Positions 1,934 through 22,100 of a DNA stretch of 22,100 nt are shown in pieces. The DNA is taken from positions 1 to 22,100 of IMG/VR virus record IMGVR_UViG_3300034104_000306. One strand, given 5' to 3'. The stretch is from a virus. Position numbers and translations under genes: made by a program. The notes beneath the pieces are model-generated. The model saw nothing but the letters and a program-made list of their open reading frames with translations. It did not search any database and was not told the DNA's origin. Positions within the stretch are counted from its first letter, which is position 1. Every line of letters starts with the position of its first letter.

Positions 1934-2123
1934 AGAAAACTTATGGAACTCTACCGAAATTAAAGAGTTGATAGAGTATGCTAGACATTTGCAAGCAGAA
2001 AATGAGGATTTACAAGCAAAAATGATAATGATGCAAGCAAAGTTAAACAACGAAGAAGCAAAGGTTAGACAAATGAATAACGCAATAAAACAAATGATAT
2101 ATGGTCAAGGAGGTAACGCTTAA
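1902..2123 (+). CDS. Small coiled-coil protein of unknown function
   Basis: A 73-residue protein starting within the last 32 nt of terL and overlapping the next gene by 23 nt, so it is embedded in a tightly coupled cluster. Residues 19-66 (from EIKELIEYARHLQAENEDL on) form a strongly predicted coiled coil with heptad-spaced L, I, M and A and many E, K and Q. The C-terminus (YGQGGNA) is short and flexible. I do not recognise a family. A coiled coil of this size beside terminase and chaperone-type genes could be an assembly adaptor, but that is speculation. Confidence 0.7.
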   Translation: MQSQSENINTRENLWNSTEIKELIEYARHLQAENEDLQAKMIMMQAKLNNEEAKVRQMNNAIKQMIYGQGGNA

Positions 2124-2763
2124 TATCCCTACAAGTTATGGTGATATAAGTTTAAAGAAATGGTTAGAGTTTCAAAAGCAATTAAAGAACTATGAAGATA
2201 ATGAAGATGCAATAACTGCATTAATGTTATCTTACTTATGTGGATTAGATACTGAATACATATCAGGTATAGCAGTAGCAGATTATGCAATGCTTAGAAA
2301 TGAATTAAGTAAGTTTATAAACAATACTGAATTACCATTACAAAAATTTATTTACATAGATGGTGTTGAGTATGGATTTGAACCTAATTTATCTAATATG
2401 TCTTATGGTGCATTTGCAGACATAACAAAGTTTAATACAATAACAATAGATGATAATTGGGCAAAGATAATGTCAATACTATACAGACCAGTTATAAAGA
2501 AAGTAGGAGACACATATACTATTAAAACATACACAGGCGACATAGACCATAAACCATTTTTAGAATTAGGTATGGATATTCACTTTGGTTGTTTGTTTTT
2601 TTTTGTAAATTTGTCAACGGACTTACTGAATTCTATCCTGAAATCTATGACGCAGATGGAGTTGCCTCTCAACATCAAGTCAACTTTAGTAAAAAGTGGG
2701 GAGCATATCAAGCAATTATTGAACTTGCAAACGGAGATATCCTCAAGATTAACGAAGTTGTAG
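2101..2763 (+). CDS. Tail-assembly-chaperone-like protein, zero-frame product
   Basis: A 220-residue protein, mostly helical, with a central motif FIYIDGVEYGFEPNLSNMSY followed by GAFADI and a later ILYRPVIKK, both familiar from a Bacteroidota phage family. Near residue 166 the frame crosses nine consecutive T (2596-2604) encoding Phe-Phe-Phe. In the zero frame it continues for 52 more codons (NLSTDLLNSILKSM to the C-terminal SRLTKL), and this tail looks like a genuine amphipathic helix. A second frame (-1) is open across and beyond the same region to 2864. Two C-termini from one N-terminus is the arrangement of lambda G/GT-type tail chaperones, so I propose that role. The gene lies about 18 kb from the tape measure, unlike the usual neighbour position. 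The function is inferred. Confidence 0.7.
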   Translation: MVKEVTLNIPTSYGDISLKKWLEFQKQLKNYEDNEDAITALMLSYLCGLDTEYISGIAVADYAMLRNELSKFINNTELPLQKFIYIDGVEYGFEPNLSNMSYGAFADITKFNTITIDDNWAKIMSILYRPVIKKVGDTYTIKTYTGDIDHKPFLELGMDIHFGCLFFFVNLSTDLLNSILKSMTQMELPLNIKSTLVKSGEHIKQLLNLQTEISSRLTKL

Positions 2764-2864
2764 AAGAACCATTGGAAAAATGTTTATTATATCTTTCTTT
2801 TAAAGCAGATAAAATACATTTAGAAAATCTATTACATAACGAAGCAATGAAGAAAGTTAGATAA
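2589..2864 (+). CDS. -1 frame extension of the chaperone-like gene (probable frameshift product)
   Basis: This frame is open through the T9 run and reads as a normal protein afterwards (GLTEFYPEIYDADGVA, FSKKWGAYQAIIELANGD, EKCLLYLSFKADKIHLENLL). It has no ATG until near its end. The only start available near the run is a TTG at 2589, so independent initiation is unlikely. A -1 slip at 2604 would join residues 1-168 of the zero-frame protein to 86 residues of this frame, giving about 254 residues ending at the TAA 2862-2864. From 2605 to 2763 both frames are coding. Alternatives are an error in the T9 count in the assembly, which would make this the only true frame, or transcriptional slippage. 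The helical SKKWGAYQ...ANGDILK section resembles the second partner seen after such proteins in related phages, as far as I recall. Confidence 0.6.
   Translation: MFVFFCKFVNGLTEFYPEIYDADGVASQHQVNFSKKWGAYQAIIELANGDILKINEVVEEPLEKCLLYLSFKADKIHLENLLHNEAMKKVR
2596..2604 (+). promoter_or_regulatory. T9 slippery site, candidate programmed -1 frameshift
   Basis: Nine T in a row are read in the zero frame as TTT TTT TTT followed by GTA. The heptamer T_TTT_TTT fits the X_XXY_YYZ rule for -1 ribosomal slippage, because both tRNAs can re-pair after slipping. Runs of nine T are also long enough for polymerase slippage. I see no obvious strong stem-loop or pseudoknot just downstream. Confidence 0.5.
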
Positions 2865-3189: not shown

Positions 3190-4503
3190 ATGTCAGCAAT
3201 ATCAAAACAAGCTTTAGTAGTAGATAATAGTCAATCATTCCCAAATAATAATGCCGGTGCAATTACACCTACTGCATTAAGGGATTTTAATACTAATATG
3301 ATAGACTCAAATGTCAATCAAACTGAATACAATACAAATAGTGGAAGTTGGAATGTATCTATTAGTAATTTAAATACTTTTACTTCGTCTCAACAACCTA
3401 CATTTAATGCATTGAATTCATTTACTGCAAGTCAGTTAACAATCAATACAGGTGTTAATCAGTTTACTCAAAGTGCCAATGCAAGTATTAATAGATTGGA
3501 CACATTCAGTTCTTCTTTTAATACATACACTGCTTCAATAAATCAGATACAATCAAATGGTGTAGCATTAGGATATTCAACAAGATTTAATTTAGTTGGA
3601 CCTGGAACATTCTTTTCAGCATCATTAGTACAAAATGTAGGAGGGACAATTGCTACTTTGACATTTACTTCTGATAATGCAAAATTGAATACCAGTTCTT
3701 TTAATGATTATACTGCATCAACTGCAGCGACCCAATCAGTATTTAGTGCATCAGTTGCAACATCTTTTAGTTCAAGTAATGCAACATTTACCGCATTCAG
3801 TGCTTCACAGAATAGTTTTAATCTATCTGCAACTGCAAGTATCGTTGAGTTATTAAACTTATCATCATCATTAAGTGGTGGATATGCAACTCAAGGTGAA
3901 TTAGACCAATCTGCATCTGTATTACAGGCAAACATTGATACGAAATTAAATACATCTTCGTTTAATGCATATACACAAAGCACTAATAATACAATTGCAA
4001 CTCTAACAACCACTGCATCTTTTAATTCATACACTGCATCTCAAGCAACAGTCAATAGTGGATATAATTCATACACTGCATCTAATAATACTAAATGGGA
4101 TACAATTGGATTATTAACAGGCTCATATGCAACAACAGGTAGTAATGTATTTACCGGTTCTCAAACAATTACAGGTAGTATATATGGAAATATAATATCA
4201 GCAAGTATAGTAAGTTTAACTGCAAGTTTAGATTTAAGTAAAGGTAATTTCTTTACTTTAACATTAGTATCAGGCAGTACAACAAATTTAACTACAACAA
4301 ATATAAAAGCGGGTCAAACTATAAATTTATTAGTAACACAACCATCTGTTGGGTTTGGAAGTTTATCATATAATACCGCAATTGCATTTCCACAATTTAA
4401 TATATACTCTCCAACTACTCAATCAGGTAGTGTAGATATAGTAACTTTTGTAACATTTGATACTGCTAAAATTTATGCAACTGCAGTTAAAAATTTAGTA
4501 TAA
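3190..4503 (+). CDS. Ser/Thr/Ala-rich tail-fibre-like protein
   Basis: A 437-residue, low-charge protein. Residues about 55-300 repeat SFNxYTAS / NxFTASQ-type units with regularly spaced I, L, F and N, typical of slender trimeric fibre shafts. Residues about 310-345 carry TGSYATTGSNVFTGSQTITG, a module also found in the large fibre at 11406 (GSFATTGSNNFNGGQIITG). The C-terminus (about 349-437, beginning LSKGNFFTLTLVSGSTTNLT) is a compact beta-rich domain. The protein probably extends from the virion, perhaps as a short fibre or attachment scaffold for the Gly-rich protein that follows: the stop and start share a base (TAATG at 4501-4505), so the two are co-translated. No enzymatic motif is seen. 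The exact location in the particle is inferred. Confidence 0.7.
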   Translation: MSAISKQALVVDNSQSFPNNNAGAITPTALRDFNTNMIDSNVNQTEYNTNSGSWNVSISNLNTFTSSQQPTFNALNSFTASQLTINTGVNQFTQSANASINRLDTFSSSFNTYTASINQIQSNGVALGYSTRFNLVGPGTFFSASLVQNVGGTIATLTFTSDNAKLNTSSFNDYTASTAATQSVFSASVATSFSSSNATFTAFSASQNSFNLSATASIVELLNLSSSLSGGYATQGELDQSASVLQANIDTKLNTSSFNAYTQSTNNTIATLTTTASFNSYTASQATVNSGYNSYTASNNTKWDTIGLLTGSYATTGSNVFTGSQTITGSIYGNIISASIVSLTASLDLSKGNFFTLTLVSGSTTNLTTTNIKAGQTINLLVTQPSVGFGSLSYNTAIAFPQFNIYSPTTQSGSVDIVTFVTFDTAKIYATAVKNLV

Positions 4504-5312
4504 TGAGATTTACACCATTTTCATTTTTAGGAGGAGATAGTAATGCAAGTGCATCGTTAAGTATAACAAACGCAATATCAGGAACATTTACATCCGGTTC
4601 TGACACTTATGGATATTTAAAATTCACAGGGTCAGGACAATTGAATATAACTACTGGTGCATTACCTTATGTTAATATATTTTTAGTAGGTGGTGGCTCA
4701 GGTGGTAGAACACAAGAAGTGGGTAGACCTAATGGACATGGTGGTGGAGGAGGTGGATTATTATTTACTTCATCATTAACTTTAAATGCAGGTTTATATA
4801 CAATTAATGTAGGAACTGGAAGTTTTCAAAATTATGATGGTGGTTCATCATCAGTAATATGTGATGCAAGAGGAATTAATATAGGAGTAGATGGAGGAAA
4901 ATTTGATGGAACATCTGGTTACCCATCATATAATGTTAAAGGTGGATATGGTGCCGGTGCTGCAGGCGGTGGTGGTGGTTTAGGAAGTGTAGGACAAAGT
5001 GGTAGTTTAGGTATAACTTATATAGGTGGTAATGGTGGTACAGGTTTAGCATATACAATTATAGGGTCATCATCTTTTTGGGGAGCAGGTGGCGGTGGTG
5101 GTGGATGTAAAGAGGGTGTTCCATATAATGGAACAGGTGGAACAGGTGGTAGTGGAATTGGTGGAAATGGCCAAAGTACAGCTGCAGGTAATGCATATGG
5201 TGGTACTGCGGGTGTTACAAATACAGGTGCGGGTGGCGGCGGTGAAGCAAATGATAGTGGTGGAAGTGAACCAGGCGGTAGTGGTATAGTAATTATCACA
5301 TATAAATTATAA
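4503..5312 (+). CDS. Glycine-rich tail protein (putative host-contact domain)
   Basis: A 269-residue protein. The N-terminal 55 residues (FSFLGGDSNASASLSITN, then a beta-rich stretch) lead into a long Gly-rich region (residues about 60-260) that begins VNIFLVGGGSGG and ends GGSGIVIITYKL. This beginning and end are the hallmarks of the Gly-rich repeat domain found at the tips of many phage tail fibres, where polyglycine helices expose variable loops for receptor binding. The match to that domain type is clear. Receptor recognition is inferred. The gene overlaps the upstream fibre stop by one base (TAATG). A second Gly-rich domain of the same kind ends the protein at 18991. The base composition is locally G-rich because of GGT/GGA codons. 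Confidence 0.75.
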   Translation: MRFTPFSFLGGDSNASASLSITNAISGTFTSGSDTYGYLKFTGSGQLNITTGALPYVNIFLVGGGSGGRTQEVGRPNGHGGGGGGLLFTSSLTLNAGLYTINVGTGSFQNYDGGSSSVICDARGINIGVDGGKFDGTSGYPSYNVKGGYGAGAAGGGGGLGSVGQSGSLGITYIGGNGGTGLAYTIIGSSSFWGAGGGGGGCKEGVPYNGTGGTGGSGIGGNGQSTAAGNAYGGTAGVTNTGAGGGGEANDSGGSEPGGSGIVIITYKL

Positions 5313-10011: not shown

Positions 10012-10536
10012 ATGTCAACTGCATTAGTAACAAATACAAATACAAATTATACAAATTATTACAATTTGATTAATTTCTTTGCAGAGTATATGGCACAACA
10101 CCCATCTATTACAGAAGTAGCAAATGAAGATTTAGCTGACTTTGATGAAAGAGAGTTTCCAAACTATCCTGTTGCAAATATAAATGTATTAGGAACAACA
10201 TTTAAAGATACTACAACTGATTTTAATATGCAAATCATTATTGCTGACAAGTATAAAGAAAAGAATAATGAGAGTGATGAAAGAACAAATGAAATGTCAG
10301 TTCCGTTTTATGGTACAGATGATAAGTATGATATATGGGCAAACACATTAGCAATAATGAATGATGTTACCAGTTTTATACAAAGAGGTGTAACCAATTT
10401 TGATATAAATGGTGATATAAATTGCAAACAATACCATGAAAGATTTGATTCAGGTTTAGCAGGATGGACTATAAACTTTACTTTAACAACACACAACGAC
10501 AGAAATCGTTGTCTATTTGAATTATACCCAAATTAA
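10012..10536 (+). CDS. Tail-terminator-like protein, paralog 1
   Basis: A 174-residue alpha/beta protein. It starts with a Thr/Asn-rich strand (TNTNTNYTNYYNLINFFAEY), then QHPSITEVANEDLADFDERE, FPNYPVANINVL, KDTTTDFNMQIIIADKYKEK, NNESDERTNEMSVPFYG and a C-terminal strand GLAGWTINFTLTTHNDRNRC. Length and position (after the connector, before the tail genes) fit a tail terminator or tail completion protein, which caps the tail tube and contacts the connector. The following gene is a clear paralog sharing almost every one of these blocks. Two diverged copies suggest separate roles, for example one terminator and one neck or tail-tip ring, but that split is a guess. Confidence 0.6.
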   Translation: MSTALVTNTNTNYTNYYNLINFFAEYMAQHPSITEVANEDLADFDEREFPNYPVANINVLGTTFKDTTTDFNMQIIIADKYKEKNNESDERTNEMSVPFYGTDDKYDIWANTLAIMNDVTSFIQRGVTNFDINGDINCKQYHERFDSGLAGWTINFTLTTHNDRNRCLFELYPN

Positions 10537-10537
10537 T

Positions 10538-11386
10538 ATGGCAACACCAATAATATCTAACACAGGAACAAACTATACTCTTTATTATAATGTAATAAAT
10601 TATTTTAGAATTATAATGTCTAATCACCCATCAATAGGAGTTGCAACAACAGGTGACTTATTTGATATAGATGAAAGACAATTTCCTGCATATCCAATCG
10701 CAAACATACAAATATTAGAATCTGATTTTGGAACTAATGTAACTAATTTTAGATGTCAATTAATAGTTGCTGATAAAGTTAAAAATAGAAATAACGAAAG
10801 TGATGAGAGAACTAATGAACAAATAATTCCTTATTTTGGAGTTGATGATAAAGTAGATGCATTCGCAAATACTCTTGCTATCTTAAATGATTTAACTTCG
10901 TATACGCAAAGAGGAGTGCAAGGATTTGAAATCAACGATGATGTTGTTTGTACCCCATTTGCAGACCGATTTGATAATGGTCTGGCTGGGTGGTCAGGAG
11001 AATTCACTTTGACTACTCACAATGATAAAAATCGTTGTCTTTTTTTTTTACTAGGTGATAGTGGATTTATAATTCAAGATTGTCAAACAGGTGAAAGATA
11101 TAAAGCAATATTAGACCCAGGCACTTATTCAACTACAATCGGTGGAGTATTCTCTACATTAAAATCACCTGGTTTATCAAATACATATGCTAACTTAGTG
11201 TGTTATATCATAGTAGAGCCAATAGAAGATTATGAGTGGGATTTTATAAATCTTCCAATAATTCAACCAGGAATCTTACAAACTTGCGCATTGTGTAATT
11301 TGTGGATAAATCCTAAAATATGGTCAACAACTCCTGCAGCATGGAGTGGAGCAGATGCAGAATTTAGAACATGGGCAACAGTATAA
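10538..11386 (+). CDS. Tail-terminator-like protein, paralog 2, with C-terminal extension
   Basis: A 282-residue protein. I chose the ATG at 10538 (MATPIISNTGTNYTLYYN) over the upstream in-frame start at 10517, because it aligns with the paralog's start and leaves a one-base gap after the upstream stop. Residues 1-168 match paralog 1 throughout (NHPSIGVATTGDLFDIDERQ, FPAYPIANIQIL, NRNNESDERTNEQIIPYFG, GLAGWSGEFTLTTHNDKNRC). The match ends exactly where a run of ten T (11040-11049) begins. After it come about 110 extra residues (GDSGFIIQDCQTGERYKAIL, CALCNLWINPKIW, and end WATV) with no Met. Reading either other frame from the run ends within about four codons, giving a 171-173-residue protein, close to paralog 1's 174. 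The extension is Cys/Trp-containing and unrecognised. Confidence 0.65.
   Translation: MATPIISNTGTNYTLYYNVINYFRIIMSNHPSIGVATTGDLFDIDERQFPAYPIANIQILESDFGTNVTNFRCQLIVADKVKNRNNESDERTNEQIIPYFGVDDKVDAFANTLAILNDLTSYTQRGVQGFEINDDVVCTPFADRFDNGLAGWSGEFTLTTHNDKNRCLFFLLGDSGFIIQDCQTGERYKAILDPGTYSTTIGGVFSTLKSPGLSNTYANLVCYIIVEPIEDYEWDFINLPIIQPGILQTCALCNLWINPKIWSTTPAAWSGADAEFRTWATV
11040..11049 (+). promoter_or_regulatory. T10 run at the domain junction, candidate slippage site
   Basis: Ten T follow NRC codons at the end of the shared paralog domain. The zero frame reads CTT TTT TTT TTA CTA and continues into the extension. A -1 slip reads TTT ACT AGG TGA (stop at 11056-11058). A +1 slip reads TAC TAG (stop at 11052-11054). 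Slippage by ribosome or polymerase would give a short form, and no slippage the long form. A miscounted T in the assembly is the main alternative. Confidence 0.4.
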
Positions 11387-11405
11387 AAATATTAAAATAA
11401 AAATA

Positions 11406-14400
11406 ATGGGAAGTTTAAGTAATCTTTATATATCACAATCGTATCAATCTCTAATTCATTTAGGGACTAACAATACTGCGTCTGCAAACTTAATTGAATT
11501 GCAAGATGGATTGGGTAATTCTATTGGAGTAGCAGTAAATACTAATGGAGATTTATTTCTTTCAGGTAGTTTAACTGCATCTTTACAACAAGGATATCTT
11601 TATGTTGGTGATTCAACTGGTAAAACAACTGCATTTGCAACGTCATCTTTGGTATCTAATGTTAATACATCATCATTAGTTACGACTGCTTCATTCAATG
11701 CTTATACTGCAAGTAACGATAGTAAAGTAAATCAGTTAATCAATGCTACATCATCATATGCAATCAGTTCATCTGTTGCAGCAGTAGACGCATCTCAACA
11801 ATCTCAAATCAATTCTTTAATTGCAGCAACTGGCAGTTATGTAACATCTACAATCACTGCAAGTTCATTAGTGACTGCATCATTTAGTGGAAACACATTG
11901 ACATTTACAAAAGGAGATAGTTCTACATTTGGAGTTGTTATCCCTGATATTAGTGGTAGCACAATCAATACAGGTAGTTTTGCAACAACTGGTAGTAATA
12001 ATTTTAATGGTGGTCAAATAATTACAGGTAGTTTAGCTGTTAGTGGTGCAGTTGTAGTAACTGGTATTATAGCAATAAATGCAGGGGGGCCAGTTGGTTA
12101 TTTGCAAACTGACTCAATATTTGCAAGAAGTGGAAGCTTGACACTCAATGGCCAACCGGGTAGTGTCATTATTACAAATTTCATGTCAAAACCAACTATT
12201 ATACAAACCAATACTGAAATTACAGGAGCTCTTAATTTAACTGGTAATTTAACTGCATCTTTGCAACAAGGATTTGTTTTAGTTGGTAATGCAAGTGGTA
12301 GAACTACGACTGTTGCAACATCTTCATTTGGTACTACAATAGATACAGGTAGTTTTACAACAACATCTTCGTTTAACTCATATACTTCATCTACTAATAT
12401 AAGACTAAATAACTTAGAAACTACATCGGCGAGTGTCAATATATCAATTAGTAATTTAAACTCAACTACAGCAAGCCAGGCAATTTCTATCACTAATTTA
12501 AACACATTTAGTGCATCTGCATTAGTGTCTATAACCAATTTAAACTCTGCAACATCATCTTATGTGACAGAAAGTGAAACTGCTTCTTTTGCAAGAACAA
12601 ATGTTGACAATAACTTTTCTGCAAATCAAACATTCACAAACATAACTGCAACATCTGCATCTATTACATATCTTACAACTCTTTATGAAACTGCAAGTGT
12701 AATATATTCTAGTGGTTCAAATCAATTCGGAGATGAGTTGACAGACATACAAACTCTTTCAGGTAGTGTAAAGGTACAAGGTAGTTTAACAGTTAATGGA
12801 ACACCTGTACAAACAAGTTCAGTTGATATCAGTGCATTAAACCAAGCAACTGCATCATTACAATCATTTACTCAATCAGCACAAATATCAATCAATGCAT
12901 TAAATACAAATAGTGCATCTGTAAATACATCTATATCTGCATTAAATACTTTTACTGCATCACAATCAACTGCATCATTAGTAACATCTATAACTGAATT
13001 AAACACATTTAGTGCATCTACATTAGTGTCTATTAGTAATTTGAATAGTACGACTGCATCTTTGAATACATCGGTAACTAATATTAATTCTGCTACTGCA
13101 AGTTTATTTGATAGTGCAAGTTTAGCATTAGTAACTGCATCATTTGACACAGGTACTAGAAACTTAACATTCACAAAAGGAAATAATACAACCTTTGCAG
13201 TTAATATTCCTGATGTTAGTGGTAGTGCAGGTGATTTCGTAACAACATCTTCATTCAATGCATATACACAAAGTAATGACCAAAGAGTTAGTTCATTAGA
13301 AACAAATTCAGCAAGTGTTAATATATCAATAAGTAATATAAACTCAACTACTGCAAGTTTAAATACATTTAGTGCATCAGCATTGGTGTCTATTAGTAAT
13401 TTGAATGCAAGTTCTGCATCACAACAAATTAGTATTGACAATTTAAATACAAATAGTGCATCGGTTAATACTTCTATAACTAATATAAATTCAGCTACTG
13501 CTAGTTTATTTACATCTGCAAGTTTAGCATTAGTAACTGCATCATTTGATACGGGTACTAGAAACTTAACATTTACAAAAGGTAATACAACTCAATTTAG
13601 TGTAAACATTCCTGACGTGAGTGGTAGCACAATCAATACAGGTAGTTTTGCAACAACAGGTAGCAATTCATTTACAGGTATTCAAACATTTGTTGATGGT
13701 ACAAATTTCAGTTCATTAGTTCCTACATCGGGTAGTTTAATGTTAGTTGCTAAATCATTTACATCAGCATCTGCACATCTTTCATCTTCATTTACGAATA
13801 GTGTAAACTTAATATTTAAGAACAATAATAATACTGCAGATACAATTATATCAGGTAGTAATAACTTATTTGTTAATCCAGCTGCTCCAACTGCAGGATA
13901 TAAAAGATACATAGGTGGTAGTGGTAATATAATGTTGAACGCAAGTACTGTCCCACTAATAAGTGGTAGTATGGTATTTAGTCCAATAATGACTAATAAC
14001 TATTTTGGTGGTAATGCAACTACATTAACTATGAGAGGGCCTGTAAGTGCTTCTACATGGACTTTTGCAGGTAATAGTGTAAATGGAACAATAAACATAG
14101 GAAATGCAGGAGTTTCTGCAGAGAGATTAACTGCAGGATTAACAATAACTGCTAATATTATTGCAGGGTCATTGACTGCATTTGCAAATCAAACTGCAAT
14201 AACATCTTCTGCTACAACGGCAAATGCTAATATAATCGTAGGAGGTGTAACATTAACTTTAAGTTCATCTGCAGCAGGATTTAGTAATAATATTGTAAAC
14301 GATAATGCTTTTACTTTAATTAATCAATTTTCATCAGGAAGTTTAGGATTGGGTCTCCCAGTTGTAAATCAAAATACAATTGGTGGTTCTACTAATACAT

Positions 14401-15290
14401 TCTATATAACAGGTAGTCAGCTAGTTGCAGGAACAGGCCCATCACTTAACCAAAACTTTATATTTGGCCAGACCAATATATTATTTGCAAACGCAAGTGA
14501 TGCTAGAGTAAGTGGTAGTATTGCTTATATGAGCTCACTTGCTACTGGTCTAATGGGACAAAGATTGATTGCAAGTGGTAGTTCTAATGTAAATGATTTA
14601 AACTCTTTCGGTAGTGTATTCGTAGGTAGATTTAATGCAAATGACGGAATTAAAAATAAAACATCTGATGTAGTCTTTGCAGTAGGTACAGGTATATCAG
14701 GTAGTGGAAACACAGGTAGAAAAACAGGCTTCTTAATAGATAGTGGGTCTAACTCATACTTTGAGGGAACACTAAATGTAAGTGGTAGCACATCCCTAAC
14801 AGGTAGTTTGACAATTCAAAGTGGAAGTTCATTCTTTGCAAATGGAAATAAACAATTTAATGTTGGTGCATTCCAATCAAATATAAATCAATCAGGTAGT
14901 GCAAATGTATCTCAATCTATGAATTTTGAAGTAACTGATATATCAAGCGGTGTATCAATTGTATCTAATTCACGAATTACATTAGCAAATAGTGGAACAT
15001 ATAACATACAATTCTCAGCACAAATTCTAGCAGATACAGGAGCAGATGATGTATATATTTGGTTAAAGAAAAACGGAACTAATGTAGCGGCATCAGCAGG
15101 ACATGTTGTATTAGCAAATAATGAAGAATTGATTGCAGCATGGAATTATGTTGTAGATGCTGCAGCAAGTGATTATTTTGAATTAGTTTGGCAAAACACT
15201 AATGGTGATGCACTCCTATTAGCAGAAACTGCAACAGGTAATATACCATCAATTCCATCAATAATACTAACGGTCACACAAGTAAGATAA
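11406..15290 (+). CDS. Large tail fibre with coiled-coil repeats and C1q-like C-terminus
   Basis: A 1294-residue fibre. I start it at the ATG at 11406, which follows an A-rich leader, rather than at the in-frame 11346 inside the previous gene. The N-terminus (SNLYISQSYQSLIHLGTNNT) probably anchors to the virion. Long shafts at residues about 335-385, 475-575 and 625-700 consist of 14-residue repeats, for example TTSASVNISISNLN, STTASQAISITNLN, TFSASALVSITNLN, whose I/L spacing is two heptads and fits a trimeric coiled coil. Beta-rich modules (SLTASLQQGYLYVGDSTGKT, TGSFATTGSN) interrupt the shafts. Residues about 1150-1294 (GTYNIQFSAQILADTGADDV, YIWLKKNGTN, SDYFELVW) look like a C1q/TNF-type jelly roll, often the receptor-binding tip. 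Host binding is inferred. Confidence 0.8.
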   Translation: MGSLSNLYISQSYQSLIHLGTNNTASANLIELQDGLGNSIGVAVNTNGDLFLSGSLTASLQQGYLYVGDSTGKTTAFATSSLVSNVNTSSLVTTASFNAYTASNDSKVNQLINATSSYAISSSVAAVDASQQSQINSLIAATGSYVTSTITASSLVTASFSGNTLTFTKGDSSTFGVVIPDISGSTINTGSFATTGSNNFNGGQIITGSLAVSGAVVVTGIIAINAGGPVGYLQTDSIFARSGSLTLNGQPGSVIITNFMSKPTIIQTNTEITGALNLTGNLTASLQQGFVLVGNASGRTTTVATSSFGTTIDTGSFTTTSSFNSYTSSTNIRLNNLETTSASVNISISNLNSTTASQAISITNLNTFSASALVSITNLNSATSSYVTESETASFARTNVDNNFSANQTFTNITATSASITYLTTLYETASVIYSSGSNQFGDELTDIQTLSGSVKVQGSLTVNGTPVQTSSVDISALNQATASLQSFTQSAQISINALNTNSASVNTSISALNTFTASQSTASLVTSITELNTFSASTLVSISNLNSTTASLNTSVTNINSATASLFDSASLALVTASFDTGTRNLTFTKGNNTTFAVNIPDVSGSAGDFVTTSSFNAYTQSNDQRVSSLETNSASVNISISNINSTTASLNTFSASALVSISNLNASSASQQISIDNLNTNSASVNTSITNINSATASLFTSASLALVTASFDTGTRNLTFTKGNTTQFSVNIPDVSGSTINTGSFATTGSNSFTGIQTFVDGTNFSSLVPTSGSLMLVAKSFTSASAHLSSSFTNSVNLIFKNNNNTADTIISGSNNLFVNPAAPTAGYKRYIGGSGNIMLNASTVPLISGSMVFSPIMTNNYFGGNATTLTMRGPVSASTWTFAGNSVNGTINIGNAGVSAERLTAGLTITANIIAGSLTAFANQTAITSSATTANANIIVGGVTLTLSSSAAGFSNNIVNDNAFTLINQFSSGSLGLGLPVVNQNTIGGSTNTFYITGSQLVAGTGPSLNQNFIFGQTNILFANASDARVSGSIAYMSSLATGLMGQRLIASGSSNVNDLNSFGSVFVGRFNANDGIKNKTSDVVFAVGTGISGSGNTGRKTGFLIDSGSNSYFEGTLNVSGSTSLTGSLTIQSGSSFFANGNKQFNVGAFQSNINQSGSANVSQSMNFEVTDISSGVSIVSNSRITLANSGTYNIQFSAQILADTGADDVYIWLKKNGTNVAASAGHVVLANNEELIAAWNYVVDAAASDYFELVWQNTNGDALLLAETATGNIPSIPSIILTVTQVR
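11952..11989 (+). repeat. 38-nt exact direct repeat in the fibre gene, copy A
   Basis: A 38-base block encoding SGSTINTGSFATT is repeated exactly at 13620-13657, 1668 bases away (a multiple of three). Recombination between the two would delete or duplicate an in-frame part of the shaft. Confidence 0.85.
13065..13232 (+). repeat. 168-nt near-identical fibre module, copy A
   Basis: Encodes 56 residues starting NTSVTNINSATASLFDSASL and containing LALVTASFDTGTRNLTFTKG. It is nearly identical to the module at 13467-13634 (402 nt downstream, in frame). A shorter related unit with TLTFTKGDSSTFGVVIPD lies near 11900-11960. Confidence 0.85.
13467..13634 (+). repeat. 168-nt near-identical fibre module, copy B
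   Basis: Second copy of the 56-residue module (NTSITNINSATASLFTSASL ... VNIPDVSGSTI). Most differences from copy A are synonymous or conservative, as expected after a duplication held by selection or refreshed by gene conversion. Confidence 0.85.
13620..13657 (+). repeat. 38-nt exact direct repeat in the fibre gene, copy B
   Basis: Exact copy of the block at 11952-11989, at the end of the second 56-residue module and just before the non-coiled middle part of the fibre. Confidence 0.85.
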
Positions 15291-18990: not shown

Positions 18991-20514
18991 ATGAGTCAAA
19001 TAATTCCAATATACATACCAACATTTATTAGTGACCAAAACTATAATCCAAGTAGAGTTTTACCACATATCTATTTTTATAATGGATTGATAGATTGTGA
19101 AACTTATTGGATTGAAAGTGGGTCAGCAGCTTTTGGTGGTGTAACATATCAACAAAATGCATTTCCATACTTTGACAATTATAATGTAGTATCAGGTAGT
19201 TTCCCAACAACAAATAGTGAATCATTACTTTTTAATAATGAGAATGCTGCATATGGTCAAATACCAACTGAAAATCTTTATACAACTTATTGGGAAACTT
19301 ATGTTTCACTTTTATATAATCCAAAGACAAGGTTATTAAATTGTGAGGCAATTATACCTTTAGCAGATTATTTCAAAATGGAATTGAATGATGTTGTAAA
19401 CTTTAAGGGTAATTATTATCACCTTCGTGCAATAAACGAATATTCTCTTAAAACAGGGGAGTGTGTACTACAATTATTAGGGCCAATAATTAGGGATACA
19501 TTGAGTGACTTACAACCAATTCCAACAGTACAAGCATCATCATCGGTTAGTTGGTCATTTACTGAAACAAGAACGAATGGAACATTTACTGTATTTGATG
19601 ATGCAACAACACTTGCAACATTAACTGCAAATGGTAGTGGTAGTGCACAAATATCTCAATCACATTATGTAACGGCATCATTAGCACCTGTAAGTTATCC
19701 ATCATCTGGAAGTGTAACAATGAGTATAAATGTAAATGGTGGAACTACACTTGTAGCAACGGGAAGTACAAACACAACAATAAGTGCATCATTCTTAGTT
19801 GGTGCAGGACAACAATATGGTATAACAGGAAGTATTGAATGGAATGATACGCCATCATTAGCACTTGAATATTTAGTTGTTGCAGGTGGTGGTGGTGCAG
19901 GTTCACAAAGTGGAGCAACTAGTACGTGGCCTGGAGGTGGTGGAGCAGGTGGATTTAAAACAGGAAGTATAACTCTTAGTAGTTCTGTTTCATTACCTGT
20001 TGAAGTTGGTACAGGTGGAGCTGTAAATACGAATGGTACTACTTCTTCATTTAATTCATTAACTTCAACAGGTGGAGGAGCAGGTGGTTCAGGTAATTCT
20101 GACCCTGGTAATAGTGGAGGTTCAGGTGGAGGCGGTTCAACGACAGGTAATTCAGGTTCAGGTGTGCCTGGAGAAGGTTATAATGGAGTTAAGGCATTTT
20201 ATGCAAGCCCAACTAATTATAATGGTGGTGGCGGAGGAGGAGCAGGTGGTGGTGGATTTATTGGTACTCCAGGTTCTACATTAGCATGGTTAGATGGAAA
20301 TCAATATGCAGGTGGAGGAAATGGTGTAAGACCAGATGTATCCGGCTCACTAACATCAGGTTCAGGTGGTAATGCTCCAAATTCAAGCGGTCAAAATGGA
20401 ATTGTTATAATTAGATATGCTGGTAGTGGAAGTCAAGCAACAGGCGGTATAATATCATATAGTGGAAGTTATACTTATCATACGTTTATATCAGGTGGAA
20501 CATTTACTTATTAA
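18991..20514 (+). CDS. Tail-tip protein with Gly-rich C-terminal domain
   Basis: A 507-residue protein. Residues 1-175 (PIYIPTFISDQNYNPSRVLP, YTTYWETYVSLLYNPKTRLL, NCEAIIPLADYFKMELNDVV, NFKGNYYHLRAINEYSLKTG) look like the C-terminal end of the large tail-tip family whose N-terminal part is the preceding gene. Residues about 178-290 are beta-rich and Thr/Ser-rich. Residues about 292-480 form a Gly-rich domain starting LEYLVVAGGGGAG and ending NGIVIIRYAGSG, followed by a short strand end (YHTFISGGTFTY). The Gly-rich domain is the same kind as in the protein at 4503 and is probably a receptor-binding tip. It thus looks like a fusion of a tail-tip C-terminal domain with an adhesin. The 13-nt gap before it indicates co-transcription. 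Confidence 0.65.
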   Translation: MSQIIPIYIPTFISDQNYNPSRVLPHIYFYNGLIDCETYWIESGSAAFGGVTYQQNAFPYFDNYNVVSGSFPTTNSESLLFNNENAAYGQIPTENLYTTYWETYVSLLYNPKTRLLNCEAIIPLADYFKMELNDVVNFKGNYYHLRAINEYSLKTGECVLQLLGPIIRDTLSDLQPIPTVQASSSVSWSFTETRTNGTFTVFDDATTLATLTANGSGSAQISQSHYVTASLAPVSYPSSGSVTMSINVNGGTTLVATGSTNTTISASFLVGAGQQYGITGSIEWNDTPSLALEYLVVAGGGGAGSQSGATSTWPGGGGAGGFKTGSITLSSSVSLPVEVGTGGAVNTNGTTSSFNSLTSTGGGAGGSGNSDPGNSGGSGGGGSTTGNSGSGVPGEGYNGVKAFYASPTNYNGGGGGGAGGGGFIGTPGSTLAWLDGNQYAGGGNGVRPDVSGSLTSGSGGNAPNSSGQNGIVIIRYAGSGSQATGGIISYSGSYTYHTFISGGTFTY

Positions 20515-20560: not shown

Positions 20561-20719
20561 ATGATAAAGGATATAATAGAATTACTGAATACTAATGAAT
20601 ACTATGGAGTAAGTGAGAGAGTTGATATTGCAAAAGGAAAATATCAAACACCTTTCACATGGAAAGATACATGGAAACATATTAAAAGACGATTATGGCC
20701 GACAAACAAGTCAAAGTAA
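20561..20719 (+). CDS. 52-residue protein of unknown function before the tape measure
   Basis: An ATG at 20561 opens a 52-codon ORF ending TAA at 20717-20719, overlapping the tape-measure start by 25 nt. The peptide has a short acidic amphipathic N-terminal helix (MIKDIIELLNTNEYYGVSER), then KGKYQTPFTWKDTWKHIKRR and a basic end (LWPTNKSK). Three Trp in the C-terminal half and a strongly basic end stand out. The overlap suggests translational coupling with the tape measure. Tail chaperones often precede the tape measure, but this is far shorter than those, so I leave the function open. Confidence 0.6.
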   Translation: MIKDIIELLNTNEYYGVSERVDIAKGKYQTPFTWKDTWKHIKRRLWPTNKSK

Positions 20720-22100
20720 AAATTGATGTAGAAACTAACGTAGAAGGTTCAATTGCAGAATTAAAAGCATTGAAAAAGCAGTTGAAAGAAACTGCTGCAG
20801 GTAGTGAAGAGTTTAAAAAAATCTATAATCAAATTGATGATTTAGAAGATAAAATTAAATCTGCAAAAGGAGCATCTGCTGACTGGATTGACTCATTAGA
20901 ATCAGCAGGAGGCCCTATCGGTATGTTAGGTGCAGGGTTGAATAAATTAAAAGTTTCAACTCAATCTTTTGGTGCTGCGTTAAAAGCAACGGGTATTGGT
21001 TTAGTAGTTTCAATTGTAGCTGGATTAGTTGCTGCATTTAGTCAAACAGAGGGTTCTTTGAAGAAATTAGAACCTTTGTTAATTGGTTTAGAAAAAATCT
21101 TTGGGGGTATTGTAGAAGTAATGCAACCTCTTTTAGATATATTTTTAGAGTTAGCATTAAAAGCATTACCATATATAACTTCTGGTATTGGTAAATTATA
21201 TTCAGGGTTTGTTGCATTCTTTACTTTAATAAAAGAAGCTGGAACAGGTGTTGGTAAAATTCTTAAAGGTATATTCACATTAGATACAGATTCAATTACC
21301 GAAGGTTATGCACAAATAAAAGGTAGTTTAAGTAAAACAATAGAAGCATATGATGAAGGTGTTAAAAGATTTGAAGTAGGAACAAAGAAACTTACTAAAA
21401 CTCAAAAAGAAAATCTTAAAACTCAAAAAGAAGATGCAGATAAAGCATTAGCTGATAAGTTAAAACAAATGGAGGCTTTAGATAAATTAGACGAAGCCCG
21501 TTTAGAAAAACTTAAAGCAGAAGCATTAGCAATTGCAACAACAGAACAACAAAAATTAGATATTGAAAAACAATTTGCAGAAAAATCATATCAATTAGCT
21601 AAAAAAGATATAGAGGATAAGATTGCCATAAATAAAAAATATGGTAAAGATACAACGGAATTACAGGCAGATTTAGTAAAATTAGATGCAGATAATATTA
21701 ATAAAAAAGCTGAAATAAATGATAAGCAAAAAAGTTTAGATGAAAATGTATTAAAGGAATTAAAAGAATTTAATAAAAGAGCTACTGATATTAAAACTCA
21801 GGCTATTATAGACGAATTAACACAATCTAAACAATCTAGAGCAGATAAATATACAGAAGACCTTGCAGCATTAGAAGAAGATAAAGTTTTTATTACAAAA
21901 TCAGAAACCGAAAAGCAAGAATTAAGAAATGCTTTAAAAGCAACATTTGACCAAGATACTATTAAATTAGAAAGTGATGCACAGGCTAAACAACATGATT
22001 TAAAATTAAGAGGATTAGAATTAGAATCACAAGGTTTGATTGAAGGTACAATGTCTTATTTTGCAAATAAGAAAGCTATATTAGATGAAAACTATGCAAA
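20695..22100 (+). CDS. Tape-measure protein, N-terminal part (partial, 3' end outside window)
   Basis: The frame starts at the ATG at 20695 (MADKQVKVKIDVETNVEGSI) and stays open to the window end, 468 complete codons. Residues 20-58 are a coiled coil. Residues about 72-118 are Gly/Ala-rich with a hydrophobic segment (TGIGLVVSIVAGLVAAF). A second hydrophobic/amphipathic stretch follows (about 140-185, PLLDIFLELALKALPYITSG ... LYSGFVAFFTLI). From about residue 220 on it is a very long Lys/Glu/Ala-rich coiled coil (KKLTKTQKENLKTQKEDADK, DKLKQMEALDKLDEARLEKL). This succession is typical of tape-measure proteins, whose length sets tail length and whose hydrophobic segments are thought to enter the host membrane during DNA ejection. 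It supports a siphovirus-like or long-tailed virion. Confidence 0.85.
   Translation, partial: MADKQVKVKIDVETNVEGSIAELKALKKQLKETAAGSEEFKKIYNQIDDLEDKIKSAKGASADWIDSLESAGGPIGMLGAGLNKLKVSTQSFGAALKATGIGLVVSIVAGLVAAFSQTEGSLKKLEPLLIGLEKIFGGIVEVMQPLLDIFLELALKALPYITSGIGKLYSGFVAFFTLIKEAGTGVGKILKGIFTLDTDSITEGYAQIKGSLSKTIEAYDEGVKRFEVGTKKLTKTQKENLKTQKEDADKALADKLKQMEALDKLDEARLEKLKAEALAIATTEQQKLDIEKQFAEKSYQLAKKDIEDKIAINKKYGKDTTELQADLVKLDADNINKKAEINDKQKSLDENVLKELKEFNKRATDIKTQAIIDELTQSKQSRADKYTEDLAALEEDKVFITKSETEKQELRNALKATFDQDTIKLESDAQAKQHDLKLRGLELESQGLIEGTMSYFANKKAILDENYA

Follow-up and report, generated by a model that had tools for sequence, protein, structure and literature searches.

A two-frame gene beside the terminase of an uncultivated virus probably encodes a G/GT-like pair of proteins by slippage at a run of nine T

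A gene located close to the terminase gene of an uncultivated virus probably makes two proteins by slippage at a run of nine T, and the two products would work as a pair in the manner of gpG and gpGT of phage lambda; we give this reading a probability of about 0.7. The comparison of sequences gives strong support to one gene coding for both a short product, which is G-like, and a long one, which is GT-like. In the mechanism that we propose, normal reading would give a short form of 220 aa, which consists of the G-like domain and a dual-coded tail. Slippage at the T9 run, with the effect of one added U or of a step back by one base, would instead continue the G-like domain into a helical domain encoded in the -1 frame, giving a long form of about 254 aa. 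By analogy with lambda, the short form would coat the tape measure protein and the -1 domain would recruit the tail tube subunits.

The window, by which we mean the whole stretch of DNA that was analysed, is a contig of 22,100 bases from an uncultivated virus, and all the features described below lie on its plus strand. The gene of the terminase large subunit (767–1933; PHROG_2, E 2e-37), the conserved upstream neighbour, is separated from the two-frame gene by a 73-aa frame of the ORF list (1902–2123) that overlaps both; a PHROG search with this ORF gave no match, and a counterpart is present in another contig (L348, 17017–17238). The zero frame of the two-frame gene (2101–2763, 220 aa) starts with the ATG at 2101 and codes for the G-like domain (about residues 1–165) followed by a C-terminal tail of its own. 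The T9 run (2596–2604) is read TTT TTT TTT in the zero frame and includes the in-frame heptamer T_TTT_TTT (2598–2604). The extension in the -1 frame (2598–2864, stop codon at 2862–2864) codes for a T-like domain of about 88 aa, defined from an alignment of 39 rows and an AlphaFold2 model; the only start codon of this frame before its late ATGs is the TTG at 2589. The two frames overlap over 159 nt (2605–2763), which are dual-coded. The coordinates given in an earlier note on this DNA, including those of the heptamer, of the TTG and of the 159-nt overlap, all proved correct when they were rechecked. The window contains two runs of at least eight T, one of which is the T9 of the two-frame gene, and no run of at least eight A.

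Searches with either frame collected 289 loci of viral contigs that contain the -1 domain. Once near-copies are discarded, 116 non-redundant loci are left (125 if another key is used). The run consists of 9 T in 94 of them (100 with the other key) and of 10 T in 22 (25), no other length being observed, and the extension is in the -1 frame in every one of these 116–125 relatives. A single uninterrupted frame was found in none of the 116 loci. The earlier note asked whether relatives keep both frames and a T run, and all the non-redundant relatives do so; it also considered that relatives with one unbroken frame and no T run would speak against its claim, and there are none among the loci examined. 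The claim itself, that of a two-frame gene with a slip site, is borne out, in that the run, both frames and the -1 direction are kept in all the relatives examined. In a distant group of relatives, NTTTTTTTTTATCATTTAGG-AACGACTT is kept almost letter for letter. The alignment of the -1 domain shows invariant YPE, KW and CL residues; the alignment of the zero frame has 34 rows.

Homologues are also found in cultured isolates, the Nonlabens phages P12024L and P12024S (Inhavirus; genes 40–41 and 38–39, respectively), with about 28% identity. In these phages, too, the terminase gene is followed by the same two frames, and the T9 run, which is at 24388–24396 in P12024L, has the same role. Unlike in our description of the window, the frames are annotated in P12024L/S as two separate hypothetical proteins, the downstream one starting from an internal ATG, and the zero frame ends 24 codons past the run. 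The relation to the Nonlabens phages suggests that the host of the virus belongs to the Bacteroidota. A search of a genome collection returned a single short match, which looks like a chance match, in an Oscillospiraceae MAG, and a distant blastn search with one of the relatives (L089) matched short stretches of Fusobacterium phages only.

Two other explanations of the gene structure have to be weighed. Homopolymers are error-prone and the window comes from an uncultivated virus, so that the two frames might result from an assembly or sequencing error, or from a broken gene; this is hardly credible, since the stretch is 100% identical over both frames in two other metagenome contigs (L002, L003/L071), and since all relatives and the cultured isolates agree. 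The -1 domain might otherwise have a gene of its own, expressed through translational coupling or from an internal start and never fused to the G-like domain, the overlap being a by-product. The TTG at 2589 would allow such a start in the window, and the annotators of P12024L/S did call separate ORFs. However, the run is invariant in its length range and in the direction of the shift. In most relatives, the -1 frame can be followed over about 17 codons upstream before it closes; it is never open over more than 40 codons, and in several relatives it opens just a few codons before the run; because it is closed so shortly upstream, internal initiation cannot yield a fusion with the G-like domain. 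Moreover, the start annotated for the downstream protein of P12024L falls within the -1 domain, about a third of which would be lost. We consider a separate gene to be very unlikely, and retain the reading in which a slip at the run joins the two frames.

Past the run, the zero frame remains open over about 48 codons on average, and over 54–84 codons in most members of the distant group; if the -1 frame is recoded with synonymous codons, the median is about 4. A zero frame open so far above the null shows that the short form's own C-terminal tail is kept too. Within the overlap, the identity of the zero frame reaches 46%, where the synonymous null gives 34 ± 0.8%, although relatedness of the sequences inflates part of the difference. 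The codon conservation of the -1 frame (observed/expected) is 1.35 in the overlap, 0.96 about the end of the zero frame and 1.17 beyond, values that are also partly due to relatedness. The AlphaFold2 model of the short form (mean pLDDT 75) has a reasonably confident fold up to about residue 180 and values below 50 for residues 185–220, which makes it probable that the kept tail is flexible. For the -1 domain, an all-helical fold is predicted (mean pLDDT 82).

The two-frame gene likely codes for a tail assembly chaperone, to which the comparisons of sequences and folds point indirectly. We have moderate confidence that it works like G/GT, and we place it in no named chaperone family. The short form belongs to PHROG_32199 (E 7.4e-14), a PHROG of unknown function. 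The commonest Pfam match is Phage_TAC_7 (PF10109), the family of P2 gpE, which is found under threshold in 14 of the 34 members (best E 0.001) and in 3/21 of a wider set; the protein of the window gives 12.6 bits, below the gathering cut-off of 25 bits. Three members match PHROG_166, "tail protein" (E 8e-4). A Foldseek search of viral models (BFVD) returns the family itself and one annotated tail assembly chaperone (E 3.9e-3), whereas the same search of the PDB gives no match, and the family profile matches nothing in lambda G, P2 E and Mu gp41, each used as a single sequence (a search for relatives of Mu gp41 from which a deeper profile could be built gave six loci, five of them near-copies). 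The earlier assignment to a lambda-type chaperone is plausible in view of the PF10109 matches below the cut-off and of one weak fold match, but neither the PDB nor lambda G, P2 E and Mu gp41 themselves gave a match in its favor. In the same BFVD models, six proteins of 234–268 aa (A0A6J5SVK3, A0A516L5A8, A0A6J5N3F3, A0A6J5N0W0, A0A6J7XA66 and A0A6J5MY57) match both domain models in Foldseek; they may be single-frame fusions in distant relatives.

The short form is also matched in Foldseek by a protein of Flavobacterium phage 6H (E 4e-4, TM-score 0.32) which, based on its length of 191 aa, is probably the product of gene 10352–10927 (R9VW65). This gene is in the tail region, some 2.6 kb upstream of a "putative phage tail protein" which is likely the tape measure protein, but it has a T6 run only and the frames cannot be joined by one -1 shift. 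Another open frame, which is not annotated, is present in the 300 nt that follow this gene (L352, minus strand).

The gene's position beside the terminase had been described as unusual. The position is real, and far from the tape measure gene, but it is a trait of the family and not a peculiarity of this phage: the terminase is within 800 nt upstream of the two-frame gene in 85 of 89 non-redundant relatives. In the window, the two-frame gene is about 18 kb upstream of a putative tape measure gene (20695–22100), which runs off the contig and to which we assign this function based on its length, place and character; this ORF weakly matches PHROG_971, "endolysin" (E 2e-4), and in 12 of 15 contigs it has homologues, with frames of as much as about 700 aa. 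The two-frame gene is 12–14 kb downstream of the tape measure gene in one linear contig (G010) and about 8 kb upstream of it in a distant phage (G016, locus L345). According to the genome records, lambda G/T, P2 E/E' and Mu 41 all adjoin the tape measure gene, and compared to these the location is atypical for a chaperone; the site directly 5' of the tape measure gene is, however, customary for G/GT chaperones without strictly defining them. No other two-frame candidate upstream of the tape measure gene was seen by eye in the ORF lists of the window, of G010 and of G016. In the distant group, the gene that follows the two-frame gene is a relative of the domain encoded at 10541–11044 in the window (10 cases out of 12).

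The likeness to lambda gpG/gpGT is that a short form and a form extended in the -1 frame come from one gene of a tailed phage, and that both frames are kept in relatives. There is no detectable relation between the sequences, however, and lambda G/T is between the tail tube and the tape measure genes, while the two-frame gene is beside the terminase. The dual-coded overlap is long (about 48 codons) and the slip site consists of 9–10 T, whereas the slip motif of lambda is GGGAAAG. The pair gpE/gpE+E' of P2 also depends on a -1 shift at a T-rich site (TTTTTTG, annotated at 19685), and the weak PF10109 matches point in the same direction, but in P2 the run is T6G, E ends about 20 nt later, and E abuts the tape measure gene.

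The slip that gives G and GT takes place, in textbooks, during translation, and the earlier note proposed a ribosomal -1 shift at T_TTT_TTT. The heptamer is indeed present in every relative, but several of the features that are kept agree no less well with slippage during transcription. Judging from the sequences, we would rate ribosome and RNA polymerase about equally, with a slight lean to RNA polymerase. If slippage is transcriptional, which has close to an even chance of being correct, the host RNA polymerase would insert an additional U when it copies the T9 run into some of the transcripts, whose ordinary translation would then give the long form. Transcriptional slippage is known from the U run of Shigella mxiE and from the A9 run of Thermus dnaX, where a slip in an A/T run of about nine gives a second product, as would be the case here. 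No paper describing transcriptional slippage in a phage tail chaperone was found in a literature search with limited subscription coverage. The alternative, a ribosomal -1 shift in which both tRNAs slip in tandem on T_TTT_TTT, on the model of lambda G/GT and P2 E+E', is only a little less probable. The lambda-type chaperones and P2 do use the ribosomal -1 mode (PMC5009743), and U_UU.U_UU.Y motifs promote the shift efficiently in E. coli (PMC4066793). The presence of the heptamer in every relative favors the ribosome as well, but it is not independent evidence, because any T9 run holds an in-frame heptamer in any phase.

What speaks for the polymerase is the set of features that are kept around the run. 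The run is never of 7, 8 or 11 and more T, although a heptamer suffices for the ribosome, and ribosomal slippage gives no account of the missing runs of 7–8 T. It is kept at 9–10 T in phases 0 and 1, whatever the register, which changed at least 6 times on a quick tree with patchy branch support, with no 8-T state. A G or a C directly precedes the run in 122 of 124 cases, including all 83 in which this base is the third of a codon. All 72 Leu codons 5' of the run are TTG, CTG or CTC, although TTA and CTA together make up 77% of Leu codons, and a quick tree (again with patchy support) counts at least 37 changes of the codon at this place. Since this third base is outside the translated -1 frame, three bases 5' of the heptamer, the ribosomal model does not predict the G/C rule and leaves it unexplained. 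The +1 frame meets a stop within 8 codons in 98% of the cases, against 73% in the null. Furthermore, the window has another conserved T run, a T10, in a different gene of the virion module, and the genes of the window contain a single run of at least seven A where 7.4 are expected from synonymous shuffling. A conserved stem-loop 3' of the run was looked for and not found (RNAalifold -0.22 kcal/mol, no compensatory pair), which counts against the ribosome.

A study in E. coli (PMC6260861) saw 25% more insertion slippage, and a threefold drop in deletion slippage, with CC in front of T5. GG and AC at this place made no difference in that study, which counts against the transcriptional explanation. 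In potyvirus slippage, insertion is more frequent with GC-rich flanks (PMC5027478), and selection against A/T runs shows at length nine in many bacterial genomes (PMC1088944). Antonov et al. read a constant -1 direction as a sign of ribosomal frameshifting, and an unconserved direction as the mark of transcriptional slippage (PMC3711429); the direction is always -1 here, but this criterion is weak in the present case, because both mechanisms need -1 once the -1 domain is fixed. Another point against a transcriptional explanation is that two-frame coding also limits the third TTT codon, since TTC would change the -1 residue. We had considered the missing TTC at the third Phe codon as evidence against the ribosome, and dropped it for that same reason.

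The second T run is in a gene (10541–11386; the listed ORF begins with the TTG at 10517) that is the long form of an upstream tandem paralogue (10012–10536), from which it differs by an extra C-terminal domain of about 110 aa; the domain common to both has distant relatives in other phages, where they come after the two-frame gene. Pfam and PHROGs gave no function for it. Its T10 run (11040–11049), C-TTTTTTTTTT-A, is a candidate slip site. It is kept in 20 of 22 long-form sequences, the two others (L313, L315) encoding CLFFL without T10, and it is absent from the paralogues. A shift either way at T10 would lead to a stop within 0–4 codons, and to a product of about the size of the paralogue 10012–10536, which ends where the shifted product would end (NRCLFELYPN). 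Early stops after T10 exist in both frames in all 22 sequences, but these stops by themselves exceed the synonymous null weakly at most (P 0.24–0.73 each). A slip here would truncate the protein, as in Thermus dnaX. The T10 run and the rarity of runs of at least seven A fit with slippage being felt in this genome. A tentative proposal, which we regard as possible but less likely than not, is that the large family related to P12024L/S makes a G/GT-type pair by programmed transcriptional slippage at T9–T10 runs with a 5' G/C, and a truncated single-domain form by slippage at the T10 run of this other virion-module gene.

Elsewhere in the window, two long Ser/Thr/Asn-rich ORFs (3190–4503 and 11346–15290) have repeated SFNAYTAS-like motifs and are fibre-like, and two others (4503–5312 and 18991–20514) have Gly-rich C-termini that match PHROG_2295.

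The G/GT slip, which the literature treats as ribosomal, counts among the most widespread recoding events of phages. In the present family, the register and the codons change around a run whose length and flanking base are conserved, and it may be that the same ratio problem is solved by RNA polymerase. If this is true, RNA-polymerase slippage would set the ratios of proteins involved in virion assembly. Genes annotated as two hypothetical proteins would gain a joined product, and the family would show that such a gene can adjoin the terminase and that its two-frame overlap can be unusually long.
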